Part shown: piece by piece, positions 12,201-64,000 of the stretch
How positions within the stretch are numbered: the stretch's first letter is position 1
Layout of the letters: each line of letters begins with the position of its first letter
Assembly: GCF_000003815.2 (NCBI RefSeq)
Contig: NC_049989.1
Coordinates: 14,387,671-14,451,670, forward strand
Length of the DNA stretch: 64,000 nucleotides
Origin: Branchiostoma floridae
Lineage: Eukaryota > Chordata > Leptocardii > Amphioxiformes > Branchiostomatidae
Reading direction: 5' to 3'
Position numbers and translations under genes: made by a program
The notes under the pieces: model-generated
Told to the model about the DNA's origin: nothing
Seen by the model: only the letters and a program-made list of their open reading frames with translations
Database searches by the model: none

Positions 12201-13571
12201 ACTAAAATGCATGAGAACACAAAGCGTCTTTCAATGTCAAACTTGAATGTTGTGTATAGCAGATACATTTATCCTTCATTAGATAGGACAAGCATTAATA
12301 TTGTTTCTACTGCAGGCTGAATAAAAATTCTATCTGGAAGCTATGTGACTCCACTGCCTACCAAAGAAATAGTCTAGCGTCAGCAGGTTTTTCTAGCATA
12401 GGCACTACTAGGTAGGGAAACAGGAAACACAACATTTTTTTCCTACAGATGTAGGCCTAAGTCCAGCCACTCCAGGCAAGGAGATTCCTACCTGTGAGCT
12501 GACAAAGTTGACACACACATCGATGAACGGTCTTAGCTGGAACACATTGGCAACAGTCTTGTCCACACTTATACCTAAAGAAAAGATGATATTTTTGTCC
12601 ACACAGTACAGAAAAAAATAAAGAAGTATACTTCGTGTCAATTTGGTGTTTCTAACAGTTTTATCTAAAGTTCAAGTTTAGATCTTTTAACTGTGGGGTG
12701 AAAAAAACATCATTAACTGACCTTTCTGTTGAGAATCTCCTTTCAGAGCCTTAACTTGTAGCAGCAGACGTCTGTAAAGGCAACCACAGAAATTAAAGTT
12801 GATAAGACTTGTTCTTGCACTAATGACTAGAACTGCTGTATTTTCCAGTACTTTCTTGCACAATTCTTTTTGCTGTTCTTCTTGTCAATAGCCGCATCAT
12901 TTGCAAATAAGTATATAATAAAACATAATATGACATCATATTAAGTTCTGTGCTGAATGATACAGAGAATATTCAATAATGAATTCAAAAAGCTACAGGC
13001 CCAAGGGCACACTTCTTTCCCACACGAGGCACCCCTGCATGGAATAAGCTCTTACCGAGCACAGTCAACAGTAAGACAGTGAAAGAAGAGTTTAAGACAA
13101 GACTGGGGCAGCAATGGGGACTGCATCCAGACCTATTCGAGTACCACTTCACGTATACTGATGCGATTACCGCCACAACTAGGACAGCCTTATTACCCGC
13201 AAGGGTATTGATTGGCTGTGGTTCAAGGTAAAGATTCAAGGTAAAGATGAAGGAAACTGCAAGACCTGTGTACCTGTTAGGTTCTTCTGGCTGGTAGATC
13301 TCCACCACATCCCCCACTTTAGCACTGGGGAAGTCTTTGGAGTTGATGACCAAGTCATTCTCTAGAGTACAGAAACAACAGGTGTAATCCCTATCATGCA
13401 TACATTCTATTGGTAAGAAGTTGATGGAGTGTCGTGTGATATTTTACACACACAAACACACACACACACACACAATCACACACACATGCACACACAGACA
13501 CACACACTAGCACATGCACACACGGACACACACACACATACATGTGCGTTTACATACACACATACACACAT

Positions 13572-14814: not shown

Positions 14815-26080
<11,266 letters not shown>

Positions 26081-40034: not shown

Positions 40035-43000
40035 TTACCTTTTCTCTGCAGGAGTTATGGGTGGTTCCACAACCTCTACTTCTTCTATCTTCACTTCCTT
40101 CACTTCTACTGGTTCAGGTTCTGGTTCTGGTTCAGGTTCTGGTTCAGGTTCAGGTTCTAGCTCTTCTTCTTCCATAGTAGGTGGTTCTTCAACCTGGGTG
40201 GGAAGCACCAGAAGAAGATGAATTTATTCAACATTATTCCAATGTAACGTTAACATTAACTAATATTTTGCTGTGCTTTGAATTTGCAGTTGAATCAAGT
40301 TTGTAATGTAGTAGTTAACATTTATGCTTAGTAGTATCGTTAGTTGAAGCTTTATCTGTGCAGTAACTTAAAACCGTTGCATTGAAAAACAAGATATTAA
40401 GGATATCAAGTCGACAGAGGTTAGTTTAAATCGTAATATTTTCACAATATCGCAGTTTGAAACCACTGTCCCTAGCCATGACCTAAATACCGTTTTTAAA
40501 AACGACGGAAATACATGTAGGTTACCCCGTAGATAAAGGTGAACTAGCGTTACATATTGTTAACACAGTATTTACTGTGTCATGAATTCAGAGTTGAGAG
40601 GTGGTCACTGAAAGAATGCAAAAATAAAACCACAGCAAAAGTTTCAAGATTGACAATATCTTTAAAGACTTTATGTGTTCTATTTGTCTTATCTAAGATC
40701 TATTCACTTAACCATACCTCAGGGGGAGGGTCCTCTACAACTGGCTCAGGTGAGGGTGTGGGGGCTGGGGGTTCTTCTTCCACCAGGGGCGGGGCGACTT
40801 CTGCTGGGGGTTCTTCCACCTCAGGGGTTGGGGACGGTGGTGGAGGGGTGGGGGCCTTTTCCACAGGGGGAGGGGATGGGGGTGGTGTTGGCTCTTTTTC
40901 TGGCTCTGGAGGTGGTGTGGGCTCTCTTGGAGGGGGTGTAGGTTCTCTCAGAGGGGGTGTGGGTTCCCTTGGAGGGGGTGTGGGTTCCCTCGGAGGGGGT
41001 GTAGGTTCCCTCGGAGGGGGTGTGGGCTCTCGTGGAGGGGGTGTTGGCTCCCTTGGAGGGGTGGGAGGTGGCGAAGGTGGCTGTAAAACAAAGAAATTCA
41101 TGTTAGTGTAGCCTTCAAACAAAGAACATTGTTGGCCAGGGATACATGTACTTTCAATTTAATACAGAATTCCATCAAGTTATCAATTATGGTAAATTTG
41201 TATGGCACTTAGACATGTCTCTCTTCAACATCAATATGGACAAATTTAAACATACATGTACATGTATTTTGTTCATGAATGACACAATTGTCTACAGGCA
41301 CTTAATAAACAAGGTAAATGTAAACACTTCAATACACATTGTACCTACCGATACCTCAACTCACAAGTCACTATCAAACCTGCAATATTACCCAAAATAT
41401 ATCTTTAAAAAAAGGAGTTTTCTAATAGATTTTCTGACAACCATCAACACAAAGCTCTCTTCAGCTCTAAGCCAGGATTGTGTTTGCTCTGCCAAGAACC
41501 GTTTCATGGCCCGTTTGCATTGAAAAGGAAATGTTTGTTATCAAAGATACCATACCCATCTGGCACCATGTTGTTTCTTTACTAACTGGTTCAATTTTCA
41601 ACTCAGGGGGTCTATTTGGGAGATGACACACTGTCGCTTTGATAAAGAGGCTTGTGTAGTCAGTCACTTAATACTACAAATAGTGACTGTCTTAATCACG
41701 AATTGTTTATCTTGGTGAAAGAAAATGTTTGATACGTTTGTTCGTTAGGTTTTGAGACAAATGATACTTTGTAACCATTATCATCATGTGATTGCCCATG
41801 TAAACATGTTACCAGAGAGACTTTTCTCAATAAGGTGGCTATGTAAGTATAGATCTTTTTCACGGACTTTTGAAAATCCGCCACATCACGCGTGTGCGCC
41901 ATGTTGGATGATAACCTGGCGGAATAGAGCACAGGATGGCCATGTGCCAGAGACCAACTTTCAGTCCTCCAAAAGAGCATGTACTGTTGTTAGATAGAAA
42001 CGGAAATTCTTAGGAACGTGCAGTCAGCATAGCAAACATTCAACCTGTTTCTGAATAAAATCCTTCCCTCCAATGACGGGTCCACCACACGCAATACACA
42101 GCCGTGTGGAGAATCATGAGCAGCTTTATCGTTCAAATTATTATAGCCATTCCAACGTTCGAACACGAGTATGACATCACATGAAAAAGATCTATTGAAT
42201 TATCTGGCAACATTTTACAGAAGTGTACAGAACTAAGTTAAAAGCTGAGAAGAATCATCATCATCATCAGTCACTGGGTTCTGCATCTATAGTCTGAGAA
42301 GAATACTATCAATTTAAATCTTGTTACATAGCAGATTCCCCTACAATCTGTCTATAGGAAAGACAAACAAAAAGTCCACACACACATAAATATTAACTCT
42401 TGAGTCAAAGTCATCCCGTTCCTATTTCCATTGACAATTTGACAGGACAGCGTAACGTTACTTCTTCTACAAACAAATATTCCCACACAACTACAAATAA
42501 TACGATATAAAAAAAGTTTTGTAATACTTCTAGCGGTGAAACACATTAGAAAAGCGAGTAGAAACAGTCTCCTGGCTACCGCGAATCAAACCCGGGCCCG
42601 CAAGCTTACAAACCCAATACCATGACGTTACAACAATTGCCTTCATCAATAAACGCTAGACATCCAAGTACGCAGTAAGCTATGCAAGCTATAAACCATT
42701 ACTCAAGCAACTGAATGAGCTTCATAAATGGACAGACATTTCAGTCACTGAAGAAAGACAATTAACAAATGTGTCCACAGTTGCTTGAGTAATTGTTATC
42801 TTGCATAACAATTGTCTACATCTTTTCATGATCGCCGGACAGACGACATCTGAATTAATTCAAAAGATAAATGTCTTGAAACTAAAAGCATCAAGGCTAT
42901 GACATTACTGCATGTAATACTTTGTATGTGCAATGGCGTGGCTAGTTTCATTTATCTTGCAATGTTATGATAGTTACCAGACAAACGGACTACACAGTAA

Positions 43001-55000: not shown

Positions 55001-56130
55001 TCAGCTTTGCTGAAAGCTTCTTTTCAGAATTTCACGGTATTGCTGGCACTAATGCTTCACTTAAGGACAGGATAGGCCGATGGTTGAAAGACGGGAGATT
55101 CAAGTGGATGAACAGGTATGGCAAAACAAAAACAAAGTGCACACCTGGATACCGCATGCACTAGCGACAAAATACATGTAAGACTGGTTCAAGCAAAACA
55201 CTTTGAAACATACGCTATTCCACAAATGAAGAGATAAGGTGTCCAAGTTTTCCCTTATAAATTTTCAGTTTCACATAAATATAGTGTTGTAAAACTTTAA
55301 ACTTTAGAATTGTATCTTGTCCAATTTCTACTACTTTCTGATGCTTCAACTTGCAATACTGCCAAATCATCACCCAAATGCTAGGTGACATTATTTATCT
55401 ATGAGAGAAATGATTTTGCCTGCCTTCTTCTTGGGTTTATAAGATTTAAAGTTACTTTCTTATATCTCCATAAGAAATATATACAACGTTCTTAGATAAC
55501 AATATATTCTTGAAACAAACCAAAACATCATACCCGTCTGGCAGAGCGCGGTCTCTCGTAACTGACATATCTGTCGAACGGTATCGTAGGAATCAGTCCC
55601 GTGGAAGATGTCGGACGCCAGTCTCCGCTCCACGTGACATTAGGTCTCCCGCGTACCAACCCCTGAGCAGTCCTCGGCCGTGCGAGTTTGCGAAAGTTTC
55701 TGTCTATTCGTACCTCTTCATAACCTCTCTCTACTTGTGTAAAACTTTTCTGCAAGTCAGCCGCTTTTCTTCGTACTGTCGCACTCCGAGCTCTTTTGCT
55801 TTTCACCTGAGGTGGACCGGACATAAACGACTTCACGCTGTACAGCGAATAAGCACTTCTCGGGCGAGACTCCCGTAAGAACTGGTAGGTATCCCCGCCA
55901 CTGTCTCGTGAACGTGCGCTTCCGCCTCTACCATCCTGTACTCTCCTTACAGTTGCGCTCTTCACTCTTTCTTGCTGGTCCTTTCTCGGAGTCGAGATCC
56001 GTAGTCTATTCTCGGAAGATGTGTCAGTATGATGTTTGGCGTAGTCCACATCTGATAGGAACTTCTGGCTAAAATCATCCTTGCCTTTCTTATAGCCGTG
56101 GGACAACCACGGCAAGTTTGGGTCCAACAT
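40035..56130 (-). CDS. Proline/glutamate-rich protein with basic Ser/Arg N-terminus; 7 exons, 506 aa if it stops at 40035
   Basis: Exons: 55534-56130, 47611-47637, 47166-47263, 45447-45604, 44644-44762, 40718-41080, 40035-40193. All phases agree (1521 nt including TAA). The first exon encodes 199 residues from MLDPNLPWLSHGYKKG, with repeated basic motifs such as RPRSA, RPRTA, KSATVRR and RARSATVRR. Short exons add FFDISKRAWLHDRPP and Pro/Glu linkers. Exon 6 is a run of about seven EPTPPPR-type heptads. Exon 7 has an (EP)n run and ends PPITPAEK. The reading AAAAGGTAACA can be Arg plus stop TAA (506 aa) or a splice donor AG|GTAACA. The latter leaves phase 2, matching exon 34103-34265 of the EF-hand gene, and would give about 763 aa. 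An in-frame TGA upstream of the ATG at 56130 supports the start. I do not recognise the family; low complexity and X-boxes fit a cytoskeletal/ciliary protein. The 9-residue exon at 47611-47637 is the weakest. Confidence 0.75.
40921..41060 (-). repeat. Coding minisatellite, 21-bp units (EPTPPPR)
   Basis: About seven near-perfect 21-bp units (GGAGGGGGTGT(A/G)GGTTCCCT on the plus strand) inside exon 40718-41080. Most differences are at third codon positions. It is flanked by irregular Pro-rich sequence. Confidence 0.9.
43019..43180 (-). CDS. Candidate alternative first exon (54 aa) inside the proline-rich gene
   Basis: An ATG at 43180 opens 54 codons (MAGSIAARNLCASRKSR..., ending KIIVNLNFKVYE) that stop exactly at a donor, GAG|GTAAAT, in phase 0. 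The sequence is very basic in the middle and is not a shadow of another gene. A perfect RFX X-box lies 57-69 bp upstream of the ATG. The next minus-strand exon, 40718-41080, begins in phase 0, so joining the two is possible. That would give an isoform with a new N-terminus in front of the proline-rich repeats. The ending loosely recalls the first strand of tubulin tyrosine ligase-like proteins, but nothing else of that family was seen, so no name is given. Confidence 0.5.
43237..43249. promoter_or_regulatory. RFX X-box before the 43180 first exon
   Basis: GTTGTTTAGTAAC fits RYYNYYN(1)RRNRAC at every position and lies 57 bp upstream of the ATG at 43180. This spacing is typical of X-boxes in ciliary promoters and supports 43019-43180 as a real first exon. 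Confidence 0.55.
44310..44600. repeat. SINE-like dispersed repeat
   Basis: Shares GTG(T/A)(A/G)GTGGGTTCTTTAAC, ATTCATTTTCACCTGAGTCA and a final AACCCAGAACC block with 59245-59490. No coding sequence. It lies between exons of the proline-rich gene. Confidence 0.5.
45712..46811. mobile_element. GC-rich inverted-end element, about 1.1 kb
   Basis: CACTGGCGGATCCAGAAATT followed by GGGGGGGCGCGCACC at the left is matched by GGCGCGCGCC...CTGGATCCGCGCATG at the right. The interior has strong GC hairpins (GCGGCCGAAGGCCGCGGCCG). Target duplication is unclear. Lies in an intron of the proline-rich gene. Confidence 0.55.
48580..49080 (+). repeat. About 120-bp tandem repeat, 2.5 units, split by a MITE
   Basis: AATTTAGAcATACTAGGCAC, AAAGGCATTTCATGAAGTAT, TATCAGTGCT and GCACTCCCAACCATTGGG recur from 48580, 48700 and 49011. 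Unit 2 is interrupted at 48740-48931. Confidence 0.8.
48740..48931. mobile_element. CTGTAAATGC MITE with readable empty site, 192 bp
   Basis: CTGTAAATGCAGAAATGTTC ... TTAAATGCATTTACAG, flanked by TA. Neighbouring repeat units keep the uninterrupted target GAAGTATTATC, so the insertion point and TA duplication are proven within the window. Confidence 0.9.
50359..50371. promoter_or_regulatory. Intronic X-box match
   Basis: GTCACCTAGCAAC matches the X-box consensus exactly. It lies in the long intron between 47637 and 55534 of the proline-rich gene, with a related half site (TGCCTAGTAACC) 20 bp to its left. It may mark an internal promoter or enhancer, or be chance. Confidence 0.35.
51239..51553. 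mobile_element. TTGGACAAGT inverted-repeat element
   Basis: GGTTGGACAAGTCCAATAG at the left and AACTTGTCCAATTCTG at the right. The interior repeats TTGTCC(A/T)A and GGCAAGT motifs in both directions. No coding sequence. Confidence 0.5.
54522..54705 (+). repeat. 26-bp minisatellite, 7 copies
   Basis: The unit TTAAAGCTATGCCTGTACTG+TACTTG is repeated at 54522-54705 with no differences apart from the edges. Intronic. Confidence 0.95.
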
Positions 56131-58295
56131 TATAGCAGCTGTGTTTCAAATGCTTCAAAATTGATCTGGACACAGATAAAATTTGAGAAATCTAAAAGTT
56201 GTCATTCTTTTTAGTAGAACAGATTCAACACTACGAGATTTCACCAAATCTAAATGTGTTTGTATATTCGCTACAAAATTAGAAGTACCGTTGACACGAA
56301 TCTCAGAATACTACGATTTGAATCCAAGGAAAACGTCAACATTTTGGAGAAGCCTCTTCAGTAGGCCTTGAAGTCGAGTCCCGCCATCTTGAAAGTTCTT
56401 GAGGCCATGAGGACAACTTACGGTTACTAAGAGTTTCTTTCCTCCTTCGCTCTGTATCTGTCCGAGTCCAAACCTTGGGGGGAATTCTCTGGACACAACA
56501 GTGGCGATAAATCTTCTGCGCAATTCAGATTAATTCACTACCTCTTCCTCGGGCGAAAAGAGCCTTTTCAGGGCACTCGATATGCGATTTTCCGCTCGAG
56601 CGAGCAACACAGTTTCAAAACTCCTTTCTGGGTCACTTCAGTCTTCACGGCTTCTCGCTTGTCTTGAGACGGGCGACGACAGACGGCAGCACCTTGTAGC
56701 AGCCATAATCCCACACTTGATAAGACTTTGGCATTCTTTAATATAGAAATCCTGACTCAGCCCCGTTCTTTTGACAACAGTAACACTTCTCATTGAAAGC
56801 TGACCCCAAATATGACCCAAGGAAGGAAGTCTATTCCAAAATCATCAAAGGGGAGTAACAATTTATTTTTAGCATATTATATCAAGAATATGAGCAATAA
56901 CTGTCACAAAAGTATATGTTACAGATAATTATATTGTATACAAAAACCTTTATAGATCCGAAAATGAACAAAAGATGTCACAATCACCGTATAAGATCTG
57001 TAAGTTCTAGACGTGTCCTGTGAGTAAAATGGTATCGTCCAAAACGCACGTCACCATATTTGGGCAAGTGTTTGTTGCCTGGTTACCCCAGACGCCACCA
57101 AACCGCCCACCTGTTGCCTCACCTGGCTGAATGACGTGCCGTCGTCTTAACTTCTCTCTTTTGTGTTCTTGTGTTGTTTTTTCGTCTTACAGACTGGTAT
57201 CTATCTAATATTCGGTCAACGTATTTTTCAGGTGGATAATTTGAAGGAAATATTCTTGTAAACCGATTTTCATGTCCTTACGAAAAGACCAAATGCACAT
57301 GCTTTGTACAAGTTCTGTTGGCAAAATAAGGCAAAGAACACATGTTGACGCACGCTACTTTCAAAGTTTTGACAACTTCGAAGGAATTTCGCGCGTCACT
57401 GTTCGTTTTGACAACTTTTGAGGGAGGCGCCTTTCAAAATACGGTTGCTAGGTGGCGCATACATGTGTCTGGGCGTCTGTGGTGTTACCTAAACAACGGA
57501 GTAAAAGCGCTAACTGTTAAGACATAGATTTTGAATAATATCTCTTGATCTTTAATTTCAAGATTGTTGTTGGCTATATTTTCTTCATACATCCTTCGTA
57601 TAAACCCATTATTTGTACTGCTAACGCAAACGCTTTGACAAACACACCTCAGTTTTAATCAAAAGTTTAAACTACACGCTAAGAAGGATAAAAATTCCTT
57701 CGGTACATTTTATTTGACTTATAGCGCTGACACAACAAGAGCTAACACATCTGACCATGCGCCGGTAACATTAACTTGTACCCACCCGCAGGATCGGCGT
57801 CAGTACCTGTTTGAATAGTGTCACATTTATGGGTTGGGCTAACGTTTCCTGTCAATCAGAGTGTCTGGGTGTGGATATTAGAAGTACACATGACTCTCGC
57901 ATATTGTCACAGACATAATACCCCTGTTGCACAGCACGAAAATCGATCGGCTGACTTGTGTGTGATCTCATAGGTCACAGAACTCCGTCATAATGATATA
58001 AAAGGGTTGATTTCAGGTGAAGGGTGACGATCTGTCGATTTTAGAATTTTGTAACTTCTGCCGATCAACATTCATAAATCATAAATTTCAGTTTGATCCA
58101 CTGATTTTAAGTCCAGGAATCGAAGATAAAATTTCTGACCGCTTTTTAAGGGAATATCTGTATACTACATGTACCATAATTTGCGGAGAGGACAGAAGAG
58201 ACTCTGGACTATGCAACAAACTTTAACATGAGAACAAAAGACATGTCAGTGACACAGAAATGGGATGACTTCAAAGGCAAAATGAAGCACACAAT
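56131..58295. other. Upstream region of the proline-rich gene
   Basis: No exon was recognised. It contains a GC-richer 5' zone (56360-56660), likely promoter and 5' UTR of the gene starting at 56130. GTTGCTAGGTGGCG near 57444 resembles half an X-box. Confidence 0.35.
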
Positions 58296-59490: not shown

Positions 59491-59821
59491 TAGATTCTAA
59501 GTCAACATATTATGTGCATGTCCCAAGAACACGACATCAGGGCCTGCTAGTGAATTGAAACCGATAAACTTTAGATTCTAATTCAAGAATCCTAACCGGA
59601 AGACTAATTTGTTTAGCTTCCACCAGGCCTTCCTACGGGGGTATGGGGATCGTAGATTCGGCAAAACGTGGGGAAAATGGCCATGCTAAGGTTCGTATTT
59701 TCCCTCCGACCAAACTCTCTGGTGGCAAAACTTGCCTGGCAAATTTTCTCTCTATAATAGCCAGTGTAGTCAGTCTGGTAGAGATAGTTTGTTTATCAGC
59801 GTATAAAATGTTGATACTTAC

Positions 59822-62800
59822 GTCTTCATCTGCAGCCTCCCGCTCATCTTCAGAATACCCTTCTCTTCCGAGCTCACCCTCCTCCCCTTGGAGTTCGTTC
59901 TTTTTCCAGTCAAAATCATTATCGTATGACCGAGATGTCGTCGACTCATTTTCTATACCGTCGTCTGCATTTTGGACAAGGTTTGCCAAATGTAGATCAG
60001 GGGAAGACGATGTTTTCGGCGATTGCTTCTGTGGTGAGGCTTTGTTGTTCGGACAGGAACACCCGTCTTTTGTACAGAGGAGTTCTCCGTCTATTTCTTG
60101 TGGATGCTGTGGTGGATGCTGCTTGGACGTGTCGTCCTCGCCCAACGGTAGCTCATCAACGACTGATTGTCTTTCTACTTCGACGACATCATTTTTTCCT
60201 ACTTCTTCTATGATTTTAGTTTGGTTCTCATCTTGCCCTCCGACATTTTCCTCATAGCACTACACGAAAACTTGAATATCCGGTCGTTTTTGGGGTTGCA
60301 TATGTCCCGTGAAACCTGGTGTATCCGGGGCATGTGCAGTCATATCCTGTTATGACAAGCGCGGGTCCTGCATATTACCGCTTATGCCTGCACATCCGGT
60401 AATTAGACATGTATGGGGATATGCGGCCCCTGCTCACGTCTCGTGTCTTGAGTAATGCCAAACAAGAGACCATCTTGTGTGTGAATTGATAGACGTACTG
60501 ATGCTTTGTCATAAGAATAGGTTTGAGTAAGATTGGTAAAGGACACCCGCTTTACATAAAAGTACTCTCCAAGCGGATGTGTATTGACTTGTCTGGCATT
60601 TTCAGTCAACAAAACTCACAAACGCCTGATATAAACGAATGCATTCTTTTACAAGAACAAAGAAAGGCCTACGCACGAATGGCGCGTATCATCGTTTTCC
60701 AATGAATTGTTACCTAGAACGAACACTAAAAATAACTTTGAGGGCGTTGTATACCAGCGTTTGGTATTATCATATTCTTAAGCTTCGGTTTTACGTTTTT
60801 AGCTAATCAACTAATTTTACTTTTTTTTTAAGCTTTTGACACAAAAGAAAACATGGCTTACCCACGCTCAATTTTAATATTCGTTTTTTTTTTTTGCTGC
60901 GGCTGTTTGTTGCCTAGATTGAACTACACGAAATGGACATTCTAAGTAAAATCTAACACGTTTGATGATAACATTCTCCACCATTCTATGGTGGGGTAGT
61001 CATTTTACGCCCTAAGCTTATCAATGAAACGGCCGCTTCAGTCTAAAGACCAATGTTTTGCTTTTGAAACAAAAGAAAACATGGCGTATATGATATACCC
61101 ACGCTCGCATTGGAAGCCTTTCATCGTTTTTATCCTTGTGGATAATGCTTGTTTTGCACACAATATGTTTGTTACCAGACTGATGTATGAACCGCCCCAC
61201 TACCAGCTGGCTGAACTACACGAAATGGACATCTAAGTAACAACACGTTTGATGATAACATTCTCCACCATTCTATGGTGGGGTAGTCATTTTACGCCCT
61301 AAGCTTATCAATGAAACGGCCGCTTCAGTCTAAAGACCAATGTTTTGCTTTTGAAACAAAAGAAAACATGGCGTATATGATATACCCACGCTCGCATTGG
61401 AAGCCTTCATTCGTTTTTATCCTTGTGGATAATGCTTGTTGCAACAACAATATGTTTGTTACCAGACTGATGTATGAAATCATTAACATTTACAGTAACA
61501 CATTTTCACCTAGTTCCTTGTGGGTATTGATTGACTGTGAACTGGCCAGGTGACAAAAGCTGAATTTAGCTACAGTGGACGTCCCGACCTATTGTGTCTG
61601 TATGCAAATACTCATCAGAACTAGCCAATTGTATTTCACACAGCATGTAGGTGTTTGAAAATAAGGACCAATAAACACACATGTCAACATTTTGAAATTT
61701 TACAGTTGGCATTTCAGAGACTTCTTTCTGTGAGGTTGCACTTTTACGCAACGGATCCCGATAGCTGGATATCTGCATGCACGGCAGACAACGTCAGTGA
61801 ACACTGAGGGATTTAGAATGATACGACCTCGAGAGTAAACAACATCTTGCCGCGTGGAATTTGAACTGCCTACGCTGGAAGGATTGGATTCTGCTTTGAG
61901 TTTTAAACAACTGTAATTTTATAGCTAGTATCCGGCCTTACGCGCGGGCAGGCGCTGTAGAGTACGGTGGGGTACGACTGACATGCCCGGTTGTGATTTT
62001 GCGGACGGTTTGAGACTACGTCACACGTCGCTATGTAGGGCTGGCTTAAAAGTTGCTGCCGGAGGCCGTGGTTGGCTCGGGTGATTTCTGCTTCGGCCCC
62101 GTGGACAGTGGAGGCTGCCCACCCGTGTCGCGATGGATCAATGGTTACCACAAATCTTCACGTTCACGTTTAGAAAGTTTGCCGCAGCTGTGCTCCTGAC
62201 TAACAAAAGTCTGTGCAGAAGACGGGTGGACAACAGAATGTATGATAGCGGGAATGCAGAACTTCACAAGACGTAAAAGGAGCATCATTCCTAGCACATA
62301 ATATATGGAGGAAATCGTCAGGACAGTCTACTGTCCCGAAATACTTTGAAAAAATAAAGAAAATTCATTCACCATTCAGAAAGAATAAAAGCAAAATAAA
62401 CACACTACAGGGAGGGGGATCCTAGGTAGGGCAGGGTAGTAAAACAAAGCTGCTTTCAATGACAAAGGGTGCTCTAGTCGAGGCCTGGGTGAGATAATTA
62501 GGTGATAATTAGGTGCTAACAAGGGTGCATGTCCCGAATAGGCAGGCATATGCAGGAAATTTGGGTCGGATGAGCGGACATGGGCGGGACATGCACCGGG
62601 ATGGCCAGGCACATATGCAGGCATTATCGGCCTCCATATGTCCCGCACACTAATAGTTGTGAATCTCCGGGTCATATGCAGGTCCGTCTATACCAAGTGT
62701 GCGGACGGCATATACCCGTTATCGGCCACATATTTTGAATATCTGGGTTTATATGCAGGAGTATTCGACCCAGATATTCGCTTTTTCGTGTAGTGTAGGA

Positions 62801-63346
62801 ACTAGCAGTCTCCTCAGTACTCGTCTCGTCTGTCCCATCGGCAAAGTGATCTTTAGGACGAAACACTTTTATGTTTGACAGAGAAGGTAGAGTCACCTCC
62901 TCTGAGATGGCTGTAGCAGTCCCTATTCCTGTATCCTTGGATACTACAGTATCAACAGAACGAACGGAGGACGTGTCAGAATCAGAAATATCTTGTGAGG
63001 CATTTTCCTTTGATGCTTCGAGTTCTCCAAATTTGTCTTCTCCTTCTTCGCTTCCATCCTTCTCAGTTTTTGCTTCCTCCTCGTCCTTTTGCTCTCTCAG
63101 TTGTATTTCCTCCAAGTGTATGATCTCGCCGTTAACGTTTGCGCCCAGTTTAATCCCATCGGCTGCAGTAGATGGTTCGGTGACGTCGGCGTTCACCCAT
63201 GAGATGCCCCCTAGCGGAGTCTTGTTGGCCCACCAGGGAACGCCGCCGCCCTTGGCGCGGTGGACGGTCATGTTTTCTCCCGTCAGGGGAGGCAAGTGGA
63301 TGACCGTGGCCTTGCGACGACTTCGAGGCGTCTTCAGGTTTCTTCT
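59822..63346 (-). CDS. Unrecognised acidic protein: one large internal exon split by a CACTA transposon; gene partial
   Basis: The exon's acceptor is ATCCAG|AGAAGAAACC at 63346 and its donor GAAGAC|GTAAGT at 59822. Coding sequence occupies 63346-62799 and 60257-59822; 60258-62795 is a transposon flanked by TAG duplications. Leaving out the transposon and one TAG gives 984 nt, 328 open codons in phase 0 at both ends. Recognisable patches are PPLTGENMTVHRAKGGGVPW, NKTPLGGISWVNADV, a Glu/Lys/Asp-rich centre, and NDFDWKKNELQGEEGELGRE near the end. In this copy translation would run into the transposon and stop near 62672. The 5' end lies beyond 64000. A possible last exon is around 59640-59740 (open after TTTGCCAG, contains MAIFPTFCRIYDP), at low confidence. 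The function is unknown. Confidence 0.65.
60258..62795. mobile_element. CACTA (EnSpm/CMC-type) transposon, 2538 bp, inserted in an exon
   Basis: Left end CACTACACGAAAACTTGAAT and the reverse complement of the right end CACTACACGAAAAAGCGAAT are about 26-bp inverted termini starting CACTA. A 3-bp TAG duplication (60255-60257, 62796-62798) is the CACTA signature. Both subterminal zones are dense in (C)ATATG(C)AGG / CATATGTCCCG / TTATCGG motifs in both orientations, like transposase-binding arrays. No transposase ORF was seen, so it is non-autonomous. It splits the exon at 59822-63346. Confidence 0.88.
60924..61497 (+). repeat. 287-bp tandem duplication inside the CACTA element
   Basis: Two units of about 287 bp (around 60924-61210 and 61211-61497) share GATGATAACATTCTCCACCA, CTAAGCTTATCAATGAAACG and GAAAACATGGCGTATATG. 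A third, more diverged stretch (AAGAAAACATGGCTTACCCA) precedes them near 60846. Confidence 0.85.
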
Positions 63347-64000
63347 CTGGATGAGAGAAACAAAAGGAAAGAAATAAGAAGACAAACAACACGTTTGCGT
63401 GCAAGTATCGTGAGGTATCGGAGTTTCTACGCACATACCGAGTTTAGCATCTCATCTTAATTTAGTATCAATGTTACATACTGAATCTTATATACAATTT
63501 ATAGCGCTGGCATAATTTAGATAATTAAAACCAATAGTACTTAAATTCAGTTTTCTTGAGTAACTGCCCATCTTTTTGAGTACCTGCAATTTTCTTTAGT
63601 AACTGCTATGCTGACGTGTCTTTTTACCTGGATGTCTAACCTACATCGATACACAGCACCATTTGTTAGAATGTAGATCCAATACATGATAAATAGACGA
63701 TTTGGACATAGAGAGGTAAAACTTTTTCTGTTTGTCTGTCCCAACATATGTAGGTGTCGAGAACTGTCTAACAACAGCCTAGTGACGGTAGTCTTTGAGC
63801 GACAGTTGAGTGACAAAAATTATATTGGATTTGTGAAACACTTGGTTTTAAAACTGGAATATGACGGACGATGTAAGAGTATGGTTTGACAGTTTTTTTT
63901 TGTATTTTTCATGATTTAGACATTGCGTTATACGTTAAAGTATGACTTAGAAGAAAACAAAATACACAAAACGTTAGAAAATTCATTCTTTATCTCTGAA
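63347..64000. other. Intron or upstream sequence of the last gene
   Basis: AT-rich; the acceptor with pyrimidine tract (TTTCCTTTTGTTTCTCTCATCCAG on the minus strand, shown in short form as TTTCTCTCATCCAG) starts it. No further exon was recognised up to the window edge. Confidence 0.4.

Follow-up and report, generated by a model that had tools for sequence, protein, structure and literature searches.

A non-autonomous CACTA/EnSpm element within an apparent coding exon of the lancelet Branchiostoma floridae

CACTA/EnSpm (CMC) elements are a defined class of DNA transposons (PMC4158355). The non-autonomous members dSpm and Tgm have CACTA ends, 3-bp (base pair) target-site duplications and subterminal repeats, and show trans dependence (PMC2613891). 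In the maize allele fdl1-1, the transcript of ZmMYB94 retains an En/Spm element that lies in exon 3, and a premature stop results (PMC4566974). Here we describe an element of this class in Branchiostoma floridae, at positions 60258-62795 of a 64,000-nucleotide (nt) stretch of contig NC_049989.1 (14,387,671 to 14,451,670, forward strand; hereafter the window, with coordinates counted from its first base). The element probably interrupts the third coding exon of an uncharacterised gene, in which it would create a recessive loss-of-function allele.

The element and the exon around it

The stretch 60258-62795 is a non-autonomous CACTA/EnSpm element, and its parts are as follows.

60258-62795, minus (the strand of the host gene, not of the element's own coding): CACTA/EnSpm-type DNA transposon, non-autonomous, 2538 bp, from termini and length
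60258-60283, plus: left terminal inverted repeat CACTACACGAAAACTTGAATATCCGG, 85% complementary to 62770-62795
62770-62795, minus: right terminal inverted repeat, pairing with the left one (26 nt each)
60255-60257, no strand: left copy of the TAG target-site duplication, from flank comparison
62796-62798, no strand: right copy of the TAG duplication, from flank comparison; TAG alone is duplicated at the site
62547-62759, plus: right subterminal repeats resembling CATATGCAGG, four matches with at most one mismatch
60920-61478, no strand: block of about 287-292 bp present twice in tandem, from repeat comparison

The structural features of the class are seen: the element starts with CACTACACGAAAA and finishes with TTTTCGTGTAGTG (CACTA...TAGTG termini), and it has a 3-bp target-site duplication, short terminal inverted repeats (26 nt, 85%) and a subterminal motif. 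The initial annotation had recognised a 2538-bp element with CACTA termini and a perfect TAG duplication, and these boundaries stand, now with the 26-nt repeats. By match count alone, and with at most one mismatch, CATATGCAGG has four plus-strand sites, all within the right 400 bp and none in the middle; on the minus strand there is one site at each element end. The repeats D4 and D7 of the element are related to the same motif. The two units of the internal tandem duplication are 95% alike, with their differences bunched at a few spots, and all 18 other family copies compared carry a single unit at this place. The longest open reading frame wholly inside the element encodes 103 amino acids (frames of at least 90 were listed), and none of the 28 places in the genome that match the transposase domain PF02992 falls inside it. 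The element is therefore non-autonomous.

On either side of the element lies open coding sequence, and two further exons can be modelled upstream.

62799-63346, minus: 5' half of the coding exon, 548 nt, phase 0 at its start, from open frame and splice acceptor
59822-60257, minus: 3' half of the coding exon, 436 nt including one target-site copy, ending in phase 0, from open frame and donor GAC/GTAAGT (slashes mark splice junctions)
66064-65873 (window numbering, beyond the window end): exon 1, with ATG start, MDGISELPCPHK..., upstream of the interrupted exon
64246-64100 (window numbering, beyond the window end): exon 2, upstream of the interrupted exon

When the element and one TAG are removed, 984 nt (328 codons) remain, open in one of the three frames of the gene strand (minus), just as had been noted at the outset. 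This openness is not readily matched by chance. Among 20,000 first-order Markov shuffles, with a sequence counted if open in any of three frames, none of the joined exon was open; the figures for the 548-nt and 436-nt halves were 0.1% and 0.36%. Codon scores trained on other exons prefer the expected frame in the first half (0.161 versus -0.092 and -0.166) and in the other (0.096 versus -0.003 and -0.432). Moreover, codon models trained on one half and applied to the other choose the expected frame in both directions (0.077 and 0.061, versus -0.41 and -0.36).

The splice sites are of uneven quality. We scored them with a generic weight matrix, not trained on lancelets, and all splice scores below come from it. 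The acceptor CTTTTGTTTCTCTCATCCAG/AGA at 63346 scores 8.2-8.4, and the donor GAC/GTAAGT at 59822 is present with a modest 2.98. Of the two good splice sites described in the initial annotation, then, the acceptor (8.4) deserves the name, and the donor is there yet modest. Exons 1 and 2 connect to the interrupted exon in phase 0 (donors of exons 1 and 2, 5.1 and 6.4; acceptor, 4.1), and the resulting three-exon model has 441 codons, 328 of them from the interrupted third exon. The intron beside that exon's donor contains a repeat of about 80 bp (~59702-59789) with at least 39 other copies.

Read-through from the exon into the element soon reaches a stop.

62672-62674, minus: premature stop on read-through, 41 codons into the element

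The frame gains 41 codons that hold element bases (the first of them partly host) and ends at 62674-62672, in agreement with an earlier estimate of about 40 added residues and a stop near 62672. We propose that a transposase from elsewhere in the genome would have moved the element into the third coding exon, duplicating TAG. The transcript would most likely retain the element, so that translation would run through the 41 extra codons to the early stop, and a truncated protein or mRNA decay would follow. The outcome would be a recessive loss-of-function allele, probably segregating beside an intact one. Taken as a whole, from the placement of the element in the third coding exon to the segregating allele, this explanation is the one that we consider probable. 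Excision that kept both TAG copies would leave 987 nt without a stop; because the leftover duplication preserves the frame, reversion is possible in principle.

Family, transposase source and age

The element belongs to a family with at least 39 other members in the genome. We searched with its left 244 bases, which gave 54 candidate places; 40 were scored, the window among them. The 39 other copies were taken as 3.5-kb (20 copies) or 8-kb (19 copies) stretches. Two clean ends were found in 34 of the 39, and 33 of these 34 are flanked by identical triplets, of 24 kinds, as 3-bp target-site duplications. The single exception, L012, has both ends clean and no duplication; it and L011 (both on contig C180) are 99.9% alike, differ in their flanks and are separated by about 68 kb. 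Copies are mostly 2.2-2.3 kb long, and five at 3.5-5.8 kb hold extra sequence. A search of the open reading frames of these five (L038, L039, L043, L048 and L051) for an autonomous member found none: L051 has two long frames that look reverse-transcriptase-like by eye, and the other four have no frame longer than 126 amino acids.

Candidate sources of transposase exist elsewhere in the genome. PF02992, the EnSpm transposase domain, has 28 matches in it (a few of them pieces of one gene) and none in 14 control genomes, and several of the matches lie within open frames of 760-956 amino acids. Three examples, at C5:21353424, C13:1223407 and C19:6373362, are equal in score and lie in 884-amino-acid open frames. 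These equal-score frames suggest that CACTA elements were recently active in the genome.

The window copy differs from its relatives in what surrounds it. We joined the flanks at 18 other copies, from the first 20 fetched. The joined flanks of the window copy give a 900-nt stretch open throughout (299 codons), and the next-longest frames across junctions, 200 and 177 codons, belong to a tandem repeat and to a sequence that is reverse-transcriptase-like by eye. The longest frame in 300 random stretches of the window was 187 codons. Of the 19 copies examined in this way, the window copy alone thus interrupts a plausible host exon.

How old is the insertion? For dating we aligned the window copy with 29 others; ten of the 39 were set aside, five because they exceed 2700 bp and five because they lack a clean right end. 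Of 2243 sites, 18 (0.80%) carry substitutions private to the window copy. Private divergence over the 30 aligned copies spans 0 to 4.58%, with the window copy in 21st place; four of the copies ranked ahead of it form two near-identical pairs, in which each member lowers the private count of its partner. By this measure the window copy is not among the youngest of the family. All 18 private changes fall between 60498 and 62337. Clean element ends could be taken as a sign of constraint before insertion; we do not press this, as over 28 copies the dip in private changes at the right end is mild (0.43%, versus 0.52-0.71% in three interior bins). Counts at the left end are biased because the copies were picked by similarity there.

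Some of the 18 changes may predate the insertion, and their number is therefore an upper bound on what has accumulated since. The mutation rate of B. floridae is 5.89e-9 and its effective population size (Ne) is about 1.7 million (PMC12862219). At that rate the insertion is at most 1.36 million generations old (Poisson range 0.81-2.15 million), or about 0.8 Ne. Since a neutral variant needs some 4 Ne on average to reach fixation, an insertion this old, if neutral or harmful, would usually still be polymorphic. The general biology of lancelets points the same way: their genomes are highly heterozygous (PMC12862219), and a single diploid B. belcheri carries 36,859 indels of 300-10,000 bp, of which about 65-77% derive from transposable elements (PMC4284660). 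From the age bound and this background together, we conclude that the insertion is probably polymorphic.

The initial annotation read the intact frame as a sign of a very young insertion, but the frame says less about age than that. Given the element's private divergence, an unconstrained exon of 984 nt would be expected to collect 7.9 substitutions and 1.8 indels (with the indel ratio taken from B. belcheri, PMC4284660), of which 1.5-1.8 would be disabling. The chance of no disabling change is 17-22%, so that an intact frame is weak evidence of age. The private divergence of 0.80%, with its rank of 21st of 30, is the better evidence.

Alternative explanations and other features of the window

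Several observations weigh against the loss-of-function reading. The predicted protein has no relative in Pfam or the Protein Data Bank (PDB): searches of Pfam with the joined exon, each half and the three-exon model, and of PDB sequences with the predicted protein, returned chance-level matches only, and the coding status of the exon accordingly rests on statistics and splice sites. Long frames also run on the opposite strand, of 229 amino acids (59568-60257, its end coinciding with the TAG) and 175 amino acids (62850-63377); codon scores at the exon are negative in all frames of that strand. No convincing downstream exon 4 was found with the weight matrix. Nor did the assembly yield an empty site, a second haplotype or a paralogue of the exon: the right half matched one place only, the occupied site, and the left half had one full match among the 40 scored of 522 candidates, the other 39 covering just the intron repeat at ~59702-59789. 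Mobilisation in trans is a supposition, in which the 28 PF02992 places are no more than candidates. Finally, the exon frame is still intact, as tolerance through splicing would likewise predict.

That last point leads to the alternative that survives best, in which the pre-mRNA loses the element as an intron, or almost as one, and the allele is hypomorphic or neutral. The initial annotation had reported no phase-compatible donor near the right end. We found one in the exon, 98 nt upstream of the element, and an acceptor in the left repeat matches it in frame.

62891-62899, minus: exonic cryptic donor GAG/GTGACT, start of a hypothetical intron at 62896, score 3.31
60259-60279, minus: acceptor-like sequence TTTTCGTGTAG/TG in the left terminal repeat, exon resuming at 60259, weak score of 0.46

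The putative intron, from 62896 to 60260, would leave 888 nt (296 codons) in frame and without a stop, at the cost of 32 native codons. Its donor scores above the native one on the generic matrix (3.31 versus 2.98), and when the element was placed in the same orientation at 77 exon places, only two did as well as the real site. Some introner families, moreover, carry one splice site and take the other from the target-site duplication or the neighbouring exon (PMC9860276). Against this, the acceptor is weak (0.46, where others within the element reach 6.4), the pair was chosen post hoc from 410 in-frame combinations, and the scores come from a generic matrix that is not lancelet-trained. With the element flipped, 69 of the 77 places did equally well or better, so that nothing unusual is left when the orientations are pooled, and the pair gives no evidence of selection for splicing. 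We regard such splicing as a weak, testable route and its being the true explanation as unlikely. Still a little less probable is the specific form in which the element is on its way to becoming a new intron: the left repeat would supply the acceptor and the cryptic exonic donor the other site, and the insertion would be tolerated, with a 32-codon deletion, and not be null. If true, a CACTA element would here give rise to an intron in an animal, much as introners do.

Equally improbable, in our judgement, is skipping of the entire exon, or dispensability of the gene, with the insertion tolerated or fixed. The exon is symmetric (984 = 3 x 328, phase 0 to phase 0), and skipping it would preserve the frame; the native donor is modest at 2.98, and the predicted protein has no known domain. 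However, skipping would remove 328 of the 441 modelled codons, and the phase on the downstream side of the exon depends on the donor alone.

We think an assembly error very unlikely, whether a misplacement or a chimeric join, of the element or of its internal duplication. Lancelet heterozygosity is high (PMC12862219), and the tandem duplication is absent from the 18 other copies compared, but a perfect target-site duplication and termini at the junctions, with a frame that closes exactly once one TAG is subtracted, are unlike a misjoin, and each half-exon is found in full just once in the assembly (for the left half, among the 40 of 522 candidates scored). It is also very unlikely that the split frame arose by chance around an element in non-coding DNA: the protein lacks a homologue in Pfam and PDB and the opposite strand has long frames too, but 0 of 20,000 shuffles were open, codon scores in each half speak for the gene strand and for the expected frame, and two upstream exons have matching phases.

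Four other open frames of the window deserve mention. The Pfam scan of the window took in both exon halves and eight other open reading frames.

55531-56145, minus: 205-amino-acid open frame, without a Pfam match, in which SATVRR and RPRSA motifs recur; it may be a small gene of its own
16813-17454, plus: open frame whose product has an NYD-SP28 domain (E 1.8e-32), probably one exon of DRC1, a dynein regulatory complex gene
12988-13443, minus: open frame encoding a portion of the IML1 N-terminal domain (E 1.4e-9), presumably DEPDC5-like
40703-41158, minus: open frame built from REPTPPP-type repeats

Comparison with known systems

A literature search found no report of this element family or locus; repeat databases lay outside its scope. 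The words CACTA and EnSpm are absent from a paper on lancelet transposons (PMC5802833).

Two groups of elements invite comparison by host or by effect. ProtoRAG is a lancelet DNA transposon with CACT-type ends, and it resembles our element in both respects. Transib and ProtoRAG make 5-bp target-site duplications, and the 3-bp duplications of the present family do not fit that identity. Introners are non-autonomous DNA transposons, some with terminal inverted repeats and target-site duplications, of which an end is able to give a splice site (PMC9860276). By contrast, the lancelet element would give only one splice site, in a splicing event that is hypothetical and would lose 32 codons. Introner copies lie in coding sequence and are spliced out of it as introns, whereas the 18 other copies of our family have no comparable frames around them.

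Among polymorphic insertions of transposable elements in lancelets, the element falls in the size class of the 300-10,000-bp allelic indels, mostly transposon-derived, that were counted genome-wide in B. belcheri (PMC4284660), whereas ours is a single B. floridae site known from one assembly. In one sense, then, it is one of many transposon insertions to be expected in a very polymorphic genome. Its interest is that it shows cleanly, with boundaries known to the base, a CACTA element in an apparent coding exon of a chordate. Moreover, the B. floridae mutation rate and pedigree reads (PMC12862219) make the frequency of the insertion, the fate of the transcript and excision directly measurable.

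Two further comparisons lead to plants. Like dSpm and Tgm (PMC2613891), the lancelet element has CACTA ends, a 3-bp target-site duplication and subterminal repeats, and it would share their trans dependence; unlike them, it resides in an animal and is not tied to a known autonomous parent as its deletion derivative. Insertion of CACTA elements into exons is a classic type of mutation. A precedent for the proposed transcript fate is maize fdl1-1 (PMC4566974), where a CACTA element likewise sits in a coding exon and the frame reaches a premature stop soon after. In maize the retention of the element in the transcript was observed, whereas the lancelet insertion is known from its sequence.
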